Position numbers and translations under genes: made by a program. Under the pieces are notes generated by a model, which made no database searches, was not told the origin of the DNA, and saw only the letters and a program-made list of their open reading frames with translations. Shown here one piece after another: positions 2,469-29,979 of a DNA stretch of 64,000 nt (its first letter is position 1; the number at the start of each line of letters is the position of its first letter). The DNA lies in contig NZ_FQVU01000003.1 of assembly GCF_900129455.1 (NCBI RefSeq), positions 682,001 through 746,000 of the forward strand. Direction: 5' to 3'. Source of the stretch: Jatrophihabitans endophyticus (GTDB taxonomy: Bacteria; Actinomycetota; Actinomycetes; Mycobacteriales; Jatrophihabitantaceae).

Positions 2469-3085
2469 CCGCGGCGCGACCGCCGGAGTGGGCGGTGGCG
2501 TCGGCGGTCGCGGCGCCGGTGTTCCTCGTCGGCGGGTGGACGCTCGCGCAGGCGGTGGGCCCGCCGGGGTTCGACGCCGTGGCCGACACGATCAGCGACC
2601 TCGCCCGCCGCGGCGTGGAGCACCGCTGGATCATGACCCTCGGCCTCGCCGGGCTCGGCGTCTCGCACGTCGTCACCGCCATCGGGTCGGCCGCCCTCCG
2701 GCCGGTGAGCCGGGTCGTGCTCGCCCTGGCCGGGGCGGTGACGTTCCTGGTGGCCGTCTTCCCGCAGCCGGTCGCGGGGTCGTCGGCCGTGCACGGCGGC
2801 CTCGCCGCCACAGGGTTCGTGCTGCTCGCCCTGTGGCCGGCGACGACGGCGTCGCGTCGGGGACCGACGGTGCGCCGACCCGCCGTGGCGATCGGCGTCG
2901 CCGCAGTGTCGGTCGGGTTGCTCGGCTGGTTCGCCGTCCACCTCGACGGCGCCACCGTCGGGCTGTGGGAGCGCGTGCTCGCCGCGCAGCAGGCGTTGTG
3001 GCCGCTCGTCGTCGTCCTCGCGCTCCGCGCGACCGCGACCGGTCGCCGCCGTGTCGGGGAGGGGGATGACACCATCGGGGCATGA
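2444..3085 (+). CDS. DUF998 family membrane protein
   Basis: This is a small integral membrane protein with about six hydrophobic segments and the ISDLA / WIM pattern near residues 45-60 typical of DUF998 proteins (function unknown). The start is uncertain. GTG at 2444 gives 213 residues and overlaps the end of efeB by 25 bases; GTG codons at 2405 and 2495 are also in frame. Its TGA overlaps the dxr ATG (ATGA, 3082-3085), so the two are probably translated together. Nothing in the sequence links it specifically to iron or to isoprenoids. Confidence 0.75.
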
Positions 3086-4284
3086 CTGCGGCTCGCGACG
3101 TCGTCCTGCTGGGGTCCACCGGCTCGATCGGGACGCAGACCGAGGACGTCGCGCGGCAGGCGACCGACCGGGTGCGCATCGTCGCGGTCGCCGCGGGCGG
3201 CAGCGACGTGGCGGCGCTCGCCGACCAGGCGGCCCGGCTCGCCGTGCGCGCGGTCGGCGTCGCCCGCGAGGACGTGGTCGACGCGCTGCGTGACCGGCTC
3301 GACGCGGTGTGGCCCGGGGACGTGCGCCGGCCCGAGGTGCACGCCGGCGCCCAGGCGGCGGCCGAGCTCGCCGCCCTGCCGTGCGACACGGTGCTGAACG
3401 CCGTCACCGGGGCGCAGGGGTTGCGGGCCACGCTGGCCGCGCTGGCGGCCGGCCGCGTCGTCGCGCTGGCCAACAAGGAGTCGCTGATCGCCGGGGGGCC
3501 GCTGGTCACCCGACTCGCGGGCGACGGCCAGCTCGTCCCGGTCGACTCCGAGCACTCGGCGCTGGCCCAGTGCCTGCGCGCCGGATCCGCCGGCGAGGTG
3601 CGACGGCTGCTGGTCACCGCCAGCGGCGGCCCGTTCCGCGGTCGCCGCCGCGAGCAGCTCCTCGACGTCACGCCCGCGCAGGCGCTGGCCCACCCCACCT
3701 GGGACATGGGACGGCTCGTCACGACGAACTCCGCCACCCTGGTCAACAAGGGCCTGGAGATCATCGAGGCGCACCTGCTCTTCGACGTCCCGTACGAGCG
3801 CATCGAGGCGGTGGTGCACCCGCAGTCGATGATCCACTCCATGGTCGAGTTCCAGGACGGCTCGACGATCGCCCAGGCCTCGCCGCCGGACATGCGGCTG
3901 CCGATCGCGCTGGCGCTCGGCTGGCCCGACCGCGTCCCCGACGCCGCGCGGCCCGTCGACTGGACGACCGCGCAGAGCTGGACGTTCGAGCCGCTCGACG
4001 CCGAGGCCTTCCCGGCCGTCGAGCTCGCCAAGCGGGCGGGCACCGCCGGCGGCTGTGCGCCCGCGGTCTTCAACGCCGCCAACGAGCTGCTCGTCGCCGC
4101 CTTCCACGACGGCTCGGTGCGCTTCCTGCAGATCGTCGACACCGTGGCCGACGTGCTGGACGCCTGGCTGAGGGAACGCCACGACGAGGTCGGGAACCCC
4201 GGTACCGTGGCGGACGTCGAACAGGCAGAGGAGTGGGCCCGCCGGCGAGCACGTTCGCTGGTCGCGACCGCGTCCGAGACCTGA
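3082..4284 (+). CDS. dxr: 1-deoxy-D-xylulose 5-phosphate reductoisomerase
   Basis: This enzyme catalyses the NADPH-dependent rearrangement and reduction of DXP to methylerythritol 4-phosphate, the committed step of the MEP isoprenoid pathway, in the cytoplasm. The NADPH-binding motif GSTGSIG is at residues 11-17. Further on are NKES, the metal/substrate segment around VDSEHSA, the substrate loop SGGPFRG, HPTWDMG, and [13 protein letters not shown]. The length (400 residues) is normal. The ATG overlaps the preceding stop. It is followed by rseP and ispG in the common actinobacterial order; ispG acts later in the same pathway. Confidence 0.97.
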
Positions 4285-21444: not shown

Positions 21445-22413
21445 GTGCAGCGTTGGCATGGACTCGAGGCGGTGCCCACCGACTGGGGTCACTGCGTGGT
21501 GACGATAGGCGTGTTCGACGGCGTGCACCGGGGCCACGCCGCCATCATCGGCCAGGCCGTCGACCTCGCCGCGGAGCGCGGCGTCCCGAGCGCGCTCATC
21601 ACCTTCGTGCCGCACCCGTCGGAGGTGGTCCGCCCCGGCTCGCACCCGCCGGTGCTGACGAGCATCGTGCGCCGCGCCGAGCTGGTCGAGGCGCTCGGCG
21701 TCGACGTGTTCCTCGCGCTGCCGTTCACGCTCGAGTTCTCGCAGCTGCCGCCGGACGAGTTCGTGCACCGCGCCCTGGTCGAGCGGTTGCACGCGTCGGC
21801 GGTGGTCGTCGGGCAGAACTTCCGCTTCGGCCACAAGGCGGCCGGCGACGTCGAGACCCTGGGCCGGCTCGGGCGCACCTTCGGCTTCACCGCCCACGGC
21901 GTCCCCCTGGTGGCGCACGGCGACACCCCGCTCAGCGCGACCTTCGTCCGCTCCAGTGTGCGGGCCGGCGACCTGCGCGCCGCGGCCGAGGTGCTCGGCC
22001 GGCCGCACCGGGTCGACGGCGTCGTCGAGCGCGGTGATCAACGCGGCCGCGAGCTCGGCTACCCCACCGCCAACCTGCGCACCGAACAGTGGGCCTGCGT
22101 GCCCGCCGACGGCGTGTACGCCGGGCGCGTCGTCCGCCTCGACGAGTGGGGCCGCACGCTCGACGCGCCGCCGCTGGGGATCGCGGCCATCTCGGTCGGC
22201 ACCAACCCGACCTTCGAGGTGCGTCAGCGGCGGGTGGAGGCCTACGTCCTGGACTTCGAGGGCGACCTCTACGGCGAGAACGTGGGCGTCGAGTTCGTCG
22301 AGCGGCTGCGCGGCATGGTGAAGTTCGAATCGGTCGACGCGCTGATCGAGCAGATGGCCGCCGACGTCGAGCAGACGCGTGCCGTCATGGCCGGCGGCCC
22401 GGGCCGCGGTTAG
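21445..22413 (+). CDS. ribF: Bifunctional riboflavin kinase/FAD synthetase
   Basis: RibF converts riboflavin to FMN and then FAD. The N-terminal nucleotidyltransferase domain has VTIGVFDGVHRGH (about residues 17-29) and VVGQNFRFGHKAAGD. The C-terminal flavokinase domain has GRELGYPTANL, PADGVYAG and the GTNPTF segment. The length of 322 is normal. The gene lies between truB and rpsO, as in many bacteria. The stop overlaps the end of the convergent TetR-like gene by 4 bases. Confidence 0.96.
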   Translation: MQRWHGLEAVPTDWGHCVVTIGVFDGVHRGHAAIIGQAVDLAAERGVPSALITFVPHPSEVVRPGSHPPVLTSIVRRAELVEALGVDVFLALPFTLEFSQLPPDEFVHRALVERLHASAVVVGQNFRFGHKAAGDVETLGRLGRTFGFTAHGVPLVAHGDTPLSATFVRSSVRAGDLRAAAEVLGRPHRVDGVVERGDQRGRELGYPTANLRTEQWACVPADGVYAGRVVRLDEWGRTLDAPPLGIAAISVGTNPTFEVRQRRVEAYVLDFEGDLYGENVGVEFVERLRGMVKFESVDALIEQMAADVEQTRAVMAGGPGRG

Positions 22414-22949
22414 CGCGGCGCGCCGCCGTCCGGGCCGGCCGCGAGCCGCCGCTCGGCGAGGCGACCCAGCTCGGCCATGCCGCGCAGCAGTGTCGTCGCG
22501 ACGTCGTCCGATGCCGGACCGAGGCGGTCGGCGAGGTTCGCGGTGAGCCACAGCGTCGCGAAGCCGTGGCTGAGCGACCAGCCGGCCAGGACCAGTCCGA
22601 GCGCCTCGGCGGAGTCGGCGGCGACGCCGGGTTGCTGCGCGAGTGCGCTGCCGTGGAGCACGGCGAACGCGGCGTCGCGTGCAGCGACGAGGTCGGGGTC
22701 GTCGCCGTGGTAGAGGCCCGGACGGAACATGACCTCGAAGTGGCCCGGGTGCGTCAGGGCGAAGGCGACGTAGGCCTCACCGCCGCGCAGGAACCCGTCC
22801 GCTCCCGATGCGACCGGCCCGATCTCCTCGACCGCCAGCCGGAAACCCTCGGTCGCGATGGCTGTGAAGATACCTGCCTTGTCGACGAAGTGGTGCGCCG
22901 GCGCTGCATGGGAGACCCCGGCGCGTCGTGCGATCTCGCGCATGCTCAC
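22410..22949 (-). pseudogene. TetR-family regulator, N-terminally truncated
   Basis: The frame encodes MREIARRAGVSHAAPAHHF, the recognition part of a TetR helix-turn-helix, and then a full helical ligand-binding domain (about 160 residues). The first helix of the DNA-binding domain (normally 20-30 residues upstream) has no start codon. Reading upstream in frame gives EAAVEAVGAAAV and then TAG at 22989-22991. The only usable starts, GTG 22949 and ATG 22943, would remove helix 1. The upstream DNA is the middle of another gene on the opposite strand. It is probably a broken gene, but expression of a shortened protein cannot be excluded. Confidence 0.7.
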
Positions 22950-22980
22950 CGCAGCCGCCCCGACCGCCTCGACCGCTGCC

Positions 22981-23313
22981 TCGCTGCCCTACGACCTCAC
23001 CTTCGGGATGCTGGCGATGTCGGGGCTGCCCACGGCGTGCGCGCTCGGCGCCTTCGCGGTAATCGCCCGTCGCAGCGGGGAGCTGCCGCCGGTGACCGTC
23101 GTGCTGGCCGTGGTGGCGGACGGTGCACACGTCCTGCTGCTCGCCTCGTTCGTCGTCGGGACCGGGTTCCTGTCGCTGGAGGGGCAGGTCGTCACCGTCG
23201 TGCCCGGCCTGCTCTTCGCCTGGATCCTCGCCACGGGTCTCGCCCTGCTGCGGCGGCCGTCGGCACCGCGTCGGCTCGGCCCGGCCGGCGTCAGGCCGCG
23301 AGCAGCCTCCTGA
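22981..23313 (+). pseudogene. Membrane protein fragment, 5' end missing
   Basis: From about 22981 the plus strand encodes about 110 residues with three hydrophobic segments (LPYDLTFGMLAMSGLP, VVADGAHVLLLASFVV, VVPGLLFAWILATGLALL). They look like the C-terminal half of a larger multi-pass protein. The frame continues upstream only as the antisense of the TetR gene, which is not plausible coding. The first in-frame ATG is at 23008. This fragment and the TetR gene are joined head to head with both N-termini absent. The exact left boundary is approximate. Confidence 0.6.
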
Positions 23314-23731
23314 GCACGCGGCCGAACAGCAGCCGGCCGGTCACGGCGGCGAGGCGGTCGGCGACGCGGGGCAGGCCACGGGGTCGGGCCGCCTCGGTCC
23401 AGGTCGTGCGTGAGCCGTCGCGGTGCGGCTCGACGGTGATCTCGGCCCATCCGAGCATCACCCGGCCGCGCTTCTCCAGGCGGCAGCGACCCGGGGTGGT
23501 GCCGCTCGGCGGTCGCCACGCCACGACCTCCATCGGGTCGTCGAAGCCGAGCGGGCCGACGGCGGTCCGCGCCGTGAAGACCGTCCCCACGCCCTCGCCG
23601 TCGGGCGCGGGCGTGGTCACGGCGATGGTCGTCAGCGGCACCCAGCGACCGTGGGCGGGCCAGTCGGTGATCCGGCGCCAGGCCTCGGCGGGGGCGTGGG
23701 GGGAGTCCTGGGTCAGGACGAAGGTGCGCAC
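23291..23731 (-). CDS. SRPBCC (START-like) family protein
   Basis: This protein of about 146 residues begins VRTFVLTQDSPHAPAEAWRRITDW, a polyketide cyclase/SRPBCC pattern. WPAHGRWVPLTTI and an ITVEPHRDGSRTTWTE strand-turn region follow, with a C-terminal amphipathic helix. Such proteins bind hydrophobic ligands; the substrate is unknown. GTG 23731 is chosen because the domain begins there; an in-frame extension to 23779 is possible. Its 3' end overlaps the membrane fragment by 23 bases. Confidence 0.78.
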   Translation of the reverse strand: MRTFVLTQDSPHAPAEAWRRITDWPAHGRWVPLTTIAVTTPAPDGEGVGTVFTARTAVGPLGFDDPMEVVAWRPPSGTTPGRCRLEKRGRVMLGWAEITVEPHRDGSRTTWTEAARPRGLPRVADRLAAVTGRLLFGRVLRRLLAA

Positions 23732-23786
23732 AGGGCGGGCATACCCCGTCGGTGCGGCCGTGCCGCAGCCTCTCGTCACGGGCTGG

Positions 23787-26709: not shown

Positions 26710-26723
26710 CCGCGTCCTACTGC

Positions 26724-26781
26724 CTTCCTCGGCGAGTTGGTTGATCAACAGGCGGTTTGATCAACCAACTCGCCGAGGAAG
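26724..26781. repeat. Palindromic repeat, copy 1
   Basis: Perfect 25-base inverted repeat (26724-26748 with 26757-26781) around the 8-base spacer CAGGCGGT. The arm starts CTTCCTCGGCGAGTTG and ends GTTGATCAA; it contains the palindrome GTTGATCAAC at the spacer edge. It lies 14 bases after the pnp terminator, between convergent genes. Confidence 0.97.
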
Positions 26782-27411: not shown

Positions 27412-27471
27412 CCTTCCTCGGCGAGTTGGTTGATCAACAGGCGGTTTGATCAACCAACTCGCCGAGGAAGG
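27412..27471. repeat. Palindromic repeat, copy 2
   Basis: Perfect 26-base inverted repeat (27412-27437 with 27446-27471) with spacer CAGGCGGT, identical to copy 1 apart from one extra pair. It lies between the 3' end of rtcB and the start of the hypothetical gene, both on the minus strand. Confidence 0.97.
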
Positions 27472-29923: not shown

Positions 29924-29979
29924 TTCCTCGGCGAGTTGGTTGATCAACAGCGGTTTTGATCAACCAACTCGCCGAGGAA
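29924..29979. repeat. Palindromic repeat, copy 3
   Basis: Perfect 24-base inverted repeat (29924-29947 with 29956-29979); the spacer is CAGCGGTT, a small change from copies 1 and 2. It lies at the 3' end of the MFS gene. Copies 1 and 3 bracket the hypothetical-rtcB-MFS unit. Confidence 0.97.

Follow-up and report, generated by a model that had tools for sequence, protein, structure and literature searches.

The locus described here lies in a window of 64,000 nucleotides of Jatrophihabitans endophyticus DNA, "the window" meaning this whole stretch, in whose coordinates all positions are given. The gene order is ribF (+), a TetR-family regulator (−), a membrane-protein ORF (+), an SRPBCC gene (−), and then, judging by their sequences, what we take to be rpsO (+) and pnp (+). 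The features on which the analysis turns are the following:

21445-22413, plus strand: ribF, flanking the 3' side of the TetR gene
22410-22949, minus strand: truncated TetR-family regulator ORF of 179 aa with a GTG start, retaining the HTH except for its beginning, and all of the TetR_C_33 domain
22950-22979, minus strand: TetR homology 5' of the ORF start, the end of helix 1, clear to 22973 and possible to 22979
22973-22984: junction of the two truncated genes, where the TetR and membrane homologies meet
22858-23313, plus strand: chimeric ORF of 151 aa from an ATG at 22858, about 40 codons of antisense TetR followed by the membrane remnant
22975-23313, plus strand: 3' part of a gene for a multi-TM membrane protein, with three hydrophobic segments left and homology ending at about 23258
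23291-23779, minus strand: SRPBCC/polyketide-cyclase-like gene, between the membrane remnant and rpsO
22414-23290: segment between ribF and the SRPBCC gene, probably acquired, absent from the stop-to-stop gap of the genus-mate G002

The SRPBCC gene is itself variable in the genus, being present in G002 (62%) and not found in G001, and it shows a weak match to the Rv0910 toxin family, far under the curated cut-off. Further along the window, a palindromic element of two 25-nt arms and an 8-nt loop occurs in three copies (26723-26781, 27412-27470 and 29925-29978), the two copies compared being identical across 59 nt. Genome-wide there are 28 arm matches with at most one mismatch at about 15 sites, against 0 for the reversed control, and by appearance the element is REP- or MITE-like.

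The regulator ORF lacks the N-terminal arm and helix 1, and its GTG start falls within the HTH. Its first residue corresponds to residue 35 of the P. acaciae relative (locus L022), leaving it 34 residues short, and the match to the Pfam profile TetR_N does not begin until position 18 of 47, whereas in the intact relative on pTY66 it begins at position 2; the loss of helix 1 claimed in the earlier note is thereby borne out. The complete N-terminal HTH of a functional TetR-family regulator is thus missing, while the C-terminal ligand-binding domain is retained (TetR_C_33 positions 5-101 of 103, E 5.5e-15, Pfam). Immediately upstream of the start, codons 22950-22973, possibly to 22979, still resemble the end of helix 1 (VEAVGAAA vs VRAVGAAG of the intact protein), so that the DNA retains slightly more of helix 1 than the ORF does, and no in-frame ATG, GTG or TTG occurs in this direction before a TAG at 22989-22991. 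Homology of the remnant to intact relatives is far above chance (E 1.9e-53).

On the plus strand, homology to intact membrane proteins starts at 22975-22984 (AASLPYDLTF vs DAASLLYDLTF) and continues in frame to about 23258, again far above chance (E 1.1e-26 and 2.3e-22). The intact proteins run to about 220-250 aa, and our own hydropathy scan shows five or six hydrophobic segments in them; relative to them the remnant is short of the first 130-135 residues, more than half, in line with the N-terminal half that had been described as missing. What is left, about 95 homologous residues and three hydrophobic segments, falls short of full length in the MTY66_RS30885 family, and the last 17 codons of the ORF overlap the 3' end of the SRPBCC gene. 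No Pfam family covers the remnant or the intact pTY66 protein, and one solved-structure match of the membrane protein (E 0.0014, 29 residues of a 2402-residue chain) was taken as chance. When 60 relatives were searched with the chimeric ORF, a single match outside its own genome was obtained, in G054, and it was to the antisense-TetR part, which there too matched antisense TetR, and not to the membrane part.

The TetR and membrane homologies break off within about 12 bp of each other, with bases 22975-22979 compatible with either gene. Both ends fall inside the common junction that had been placed at about 22950-22990, and the range can now be narrowed to 22973-22984. One copy of an imperfect 22-nt repeat (86%), at 22955-22976, reaches the junction; the other lies inside the TetR gene at 22814-22835. 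The segment also has, close to each of its ends (22437 and 23294), a copy of a 14-nt direct repeat, the two differing by one mismatch, but in GC-rich DNA it is too short to be called.

Relatives of the regulator were collected from named genomes, nearly all actinobacteria, which gave 28 loci, and from the order, where 9 of 60 other genomes had matches at E 1e-12 and 5 of 396 others at 1e-45, with seven candidates scored per genome. Altogether 39 TetR loci were parsed, leaving out L005, L017-L020, L034, L036, L037, L045-L048 and L101; the tree holds 22 of 40 rows, and L034, L036, L037 and L045-L048 were inspected separately. For the membrane gene, a search of 295 other genomes of the class at 1e-3 gave homologues in nine, of which three were strong, and a search of 396 others of the order at 1e-6 gave them in seven; viral contigs and phages yielded none. 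Six weak class matches (G160, G333, G207, G168, G066 and G166; best 2.2e-5) were set aside, those of G160 and G333 resembling by eye what we take to be LysE-type exporters. Weak membrane matches in the first TetR loci, among them L029, L030, L033 and L035 (E 0.6-5), were not significant either.

Intact divergent TetR-membrane pairs, with which the earlier note had proposed that the locus be aligned, exist head to head in three records of mycobacterial plasmids (NZ_CP020811.1, NZ_AP023334.1 and NZ_AP023363.1) and in two chromosomes, G568 and G538. The spacing between the genes is 87-113 bp (112-113 in the plasmids, 109 in G568 and 87 in G538), and both homologues occur together in all three plasmid records that hold the membrane gene, where they are annotated as a TetR of 210 aa and a hypothetical protein of 227 aa, head to head. 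Since NZ_AP023334.1 and NZ_AP023363.1 share protein accessions and NZ_CP020811.1 is 96-98% identical to both, the plasmid records amount to few independent observations of the intact pair. Compared with the intact pairs, the window is missing 0.54-0.60 kb, a block that spans about 25 codons of TetR, the DNA between the genes and the N-terminal half of the membrane protein's coding sequence; the missing length is 540-555 bp relative to G538, 574-589 relative to G568 and 580-596 relative to the plasmids.

Both genes are therefore truncated at a common junction and have intact divergent counterparts elsewhere, and an intact homologous pair together with coincident loss of both 5' ends is what characterises a pseudogene pair made by deletion. 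We consider it very likely that a divergent TetR-membrane pair was acquired and then lost its promoter/operator region and both 5' ends through one deletion of 0.54-0.60 kb. On this reading, a TetR repressor and a membrane gene under a shared promoter/operator would have been acquired between ribF and the SRPBCC gene, and the deletion would have removed the promoter/operator region together with about 25 codons from the start of TetR, encoding the arm and most of helix 1, and about 130 from the start of the membrane gene. The intact pairs and the coincident breaks lend support to the earlier proposal that one deletion took the shared promoter region and both 5' ends, and the event was probably single. 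As no close relative with an intact pair at the same site was found, the deletion is deduced from loci that are 40-64% identical in protein sequence.

A missing block of about 0.55 kb at 22973-22984 might also have been dropped in assembly or consensus calling from a strain that in truth carries the intact pair. The coding remnants look undecayed, as would be expected of genes that are really intact, and the 22-nt repeat adjoins the junction. However, the other copy of that repeat is also present, within TetR, and no second genomic copy of the 351 bases around the junction was found, except for a 25-base match away from it; moreover, the contig is 953 kb long and the outer flanks (ribF on one side, SRPBCC-rpsO-pnp on the other) stand in the order seen in G002. 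We therefore regard such an error as improbable.

The partners of related regulators bear on whether the two genes were original neighbours. The closest TetR sequence is that of P. acaciae (70%), which faces an FAD oxidoreductase, and the divergent neighbour is likewise an FAD-dependent oxidoreductase in L021, L024, L025, G054, G466 and G205 (Pfam having been run on that of L022 only); in L023 it is a GNAT-type, acetyltransferase-like protein. An FAD-dependent oxidoreductase was our first idea of the original TetR partner and was demoted to a rival once the TetR-membrane pairs appeared. Such a regulator could have faced an oxidoreductase until its 5' end was joined to an unrelated membrane gene in a more extensive deletion or rearrangement. 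We retain this possibility because on the tree the TetR of the window does not group with those paired to a membrane gene and because the sequence nearest to it in identity is oxidoreductase-paired. It also fits the membrane homologues that occur without such a TetR in G295, G260, G462, G493 and G123. The membrane remnant is closest (60%) to the G295 copy, which has no such TetR beside it; in G295, G260, G462 and G493 the membrane gene follows an Rv2525c-like gene (Pfam on that of G295 only, the others by resemblance), and the window type of TetR is absent within 9-12 kb around it, with another TetR-like gene, named by eye, downstream of the membrane gene in G260, G462 and G493. The upstream ends of the G295 and G493 membrane sequences were trimmed by eye. 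Against the larger rearrangement, the same homologues are divergent neighbours in the expected orientation in G568, G538 and two plasmid lineages, no FAD oxidoreductase lies within 8.5-9 kb around the TetR-membrane pairs, and a chance fusion is unlikely to have recreated both pairing and orientation. We judge it about as improbable as an assembly error.

Some further observations concern these relatives. On the tree, partner kinds are interleaved, oxidoreductase in L021, L022, L024, L025, L086, L115 and L118 and membrane protein in L099, L100, L113 and L114. In L026 (M. sinensis) the FAD oxidoreductase (865-2206) is encoded downstream of TetR (14-673) in the same direction; it has two operator-like sites to itself, and its homology is divided between two frames. 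The window's own genome encodes a 50% homologue of the FAD oxidoreductase at C4:420096, in a stretch that shows no operator-like pattern. In G123 (L084, 5303-5988) the membrane homologue is split by a frameshift, through gene decay or sequencing error.

Upstream of the 12 intact TetRs making up the tree's near clade, an operator-like sequence, ACTTATCAATGGTCAGAT, sits 54-68 bases before the YHHG codons. It is exact in eight loci and has one mismatch in two, three in one and six in one (G538), although the consensus was derived from these same 12 loci and the counts are a description rather than an independent test. With 40 mononucleotide shuffles per region, the best shuffled matches had at least six mismatches, so that the G538 site does not stand out from the best of these. 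A second, weaker site follows 34-36 bp beyond the first in nine of the 11 loci whose DNA extends far enough, and 52-55 bp beyond it in the other two, pDiox and G568; in G538 and L023 (7 mismatches) it is not above chance. Twelve more distant TetR loci gave best matches to ACTTATCAATGGTCAGAT with 4-8 mismatches, the best in the window between 21000 and 25000 had seven, and the whole genome held none with three or fewer. A 13-base piece of the sequence also occurs in 15 published papers; among the matches listed are antibacterial or staphylococcal studies. Passages of PMC3511530 and PMC4482099 state that when a TetR-family regulator and a divergent gene are less than 200 bp apart, the regulator usually controls that gene, as a rule by repression. 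This rule, together with the operator-like sites, leads us to read the intact unit as a probable autoregulated repressor and its target, a membrane protein presumably released by some ligand, and the ancestral TetR would have repressed both genes through the conserved site.

The stops of ribF and the SRPBCC gene lie 70 bp apart with nothing between them in G002, and in the genus-mate G001 the ribF-rpsO gap is 121 bp and the SRPBCC gene is missing. Neither the TetR nor the membrane gene was matched in 23 other genomes of the family, 11 or 12 of which are at least 90% complete. The empty gap and the lack of matches in these 23 relatives suggest that the segment was probably gained locally, to be cut later or already cut on arrival, loss from all 23 being the less simple alternative. 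Per residue, the TetR remnant scores 1.48 bits against an HMM, with 1.31-1.66 for 12 intact proteins (leave-one-out), and the membrane remnant 1.18 bits, with 1.12-1.75 for seven (pDiox omitted as a near-duplicate); the comparison is tilted slightly towards the remnants, which were scored against full sets, each intact protein having been scored against a set with one member fewer. In the remaining coding sequence there is no frameshift and no clear drop in score, so the event looks recent.

Both remnant ORFs are likely to be non-functional, since the operator and helix 1 are gone and only about half of the hydrophobic segments are left; as the remnants show neither frameshift nor clear score decay, some residual function is possible. 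The short forms might even work as they are, for instance if new promoters drove expression of a TetR ligand-binding domain that no longer binds DNA and of a membrane protein with three TM segments. Both frames are open, the TetR score lying inside the range of intact relatives and the membrane score at the lower end of its range, and N-terminally shortened TetRs, cut at other points, exist elsewhere in L036 and L048. Yet the 12 near-clade TetRs and the 8 aligned membrane sequences are all full length, so that relatives sharing these short forms, which the earlier note had named as evidence against a scar, were not seen among them. Furthermore, the operator-like site is lost, antisense TetR makes up part of the longest ORF on the plus strand, a chimera, and at 72% GC long open frames are common by chance; we hold functional short forms to be highly improbable. 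We give no more credence to the idea that the deletion created working genes, both expressed and kept: a TetR that binds its ligand but not DNA, and a membrane protein, the 151-aa chimera, whose first 40 residues would be encoded by the strand opposite the TetR HTH.

Broken regulators of this kind are found elsewhere, in three of the 28 loci from named genomes. The match begins at residue 92 in L036 (Gordonia; 3001-3327); L045 (Gordonia; 2908-3221) is frameshifted with internal loss, its match stopping at residue 108; and in L048 (Pseudonocardiales MAG; 2947-3144) only residues 138-202 are matched. These breakpoints differ from that of the window, and around none of the three was an oxidoreductase, a membrane gene or an operator-like site with up to four mismatches found. 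Three differently broken copies indicate that decay of the regulator recurs. The TetR copy of L047 is interrupted by a contig end.

With an acquired pair cut by one deletion as the preferred reading, the locus is a well-explained case of ordinary gene decay, and a clean example of one small deletion disabling a repressor and its target together. The relatives form a small subfamily of TetRs in which an operator-like site is strongly conserved and the divergent partner varies (FAD oxidoreductase, membrane protein or, in one locus, an acetyltransferase-like protein), and this is more testable than the scar itself.

The nearest counterpart of the locus is the plasmid pair (BTO20_RS37775/RS37780; MTY66_RS30890/RS30885), which has homologous genes (TetR 56%, membrane 51-57%), likewise adjacent and head to head. 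In contrast to the window, neither plasmid gene is truncated (210 and 227 aa), and the 112-113 bp between them carry operator-like sites. The intact relatives share with the TetR/tetA type of arrangement, as it appears in passages of PMC3511530 and PMC4482099, a divergent regulator and target, a short intergenic region and an operator-like site. The window keeps the divergent orientation but not the shared intergenic promoter/operator of a TetR-target pair, and with the intergenic region and both 5' ends gone, regulation through it is impossible. A passage of PMC4482099 describes two TetR regulators of M. leprae, ML2457 and ML2677, that face a pseudogene. These loci resemble the window as divergent TetR-target units in decay, and differ in that the pseudogene described there is the partner, whereas in the window a single junction truncates both genes.
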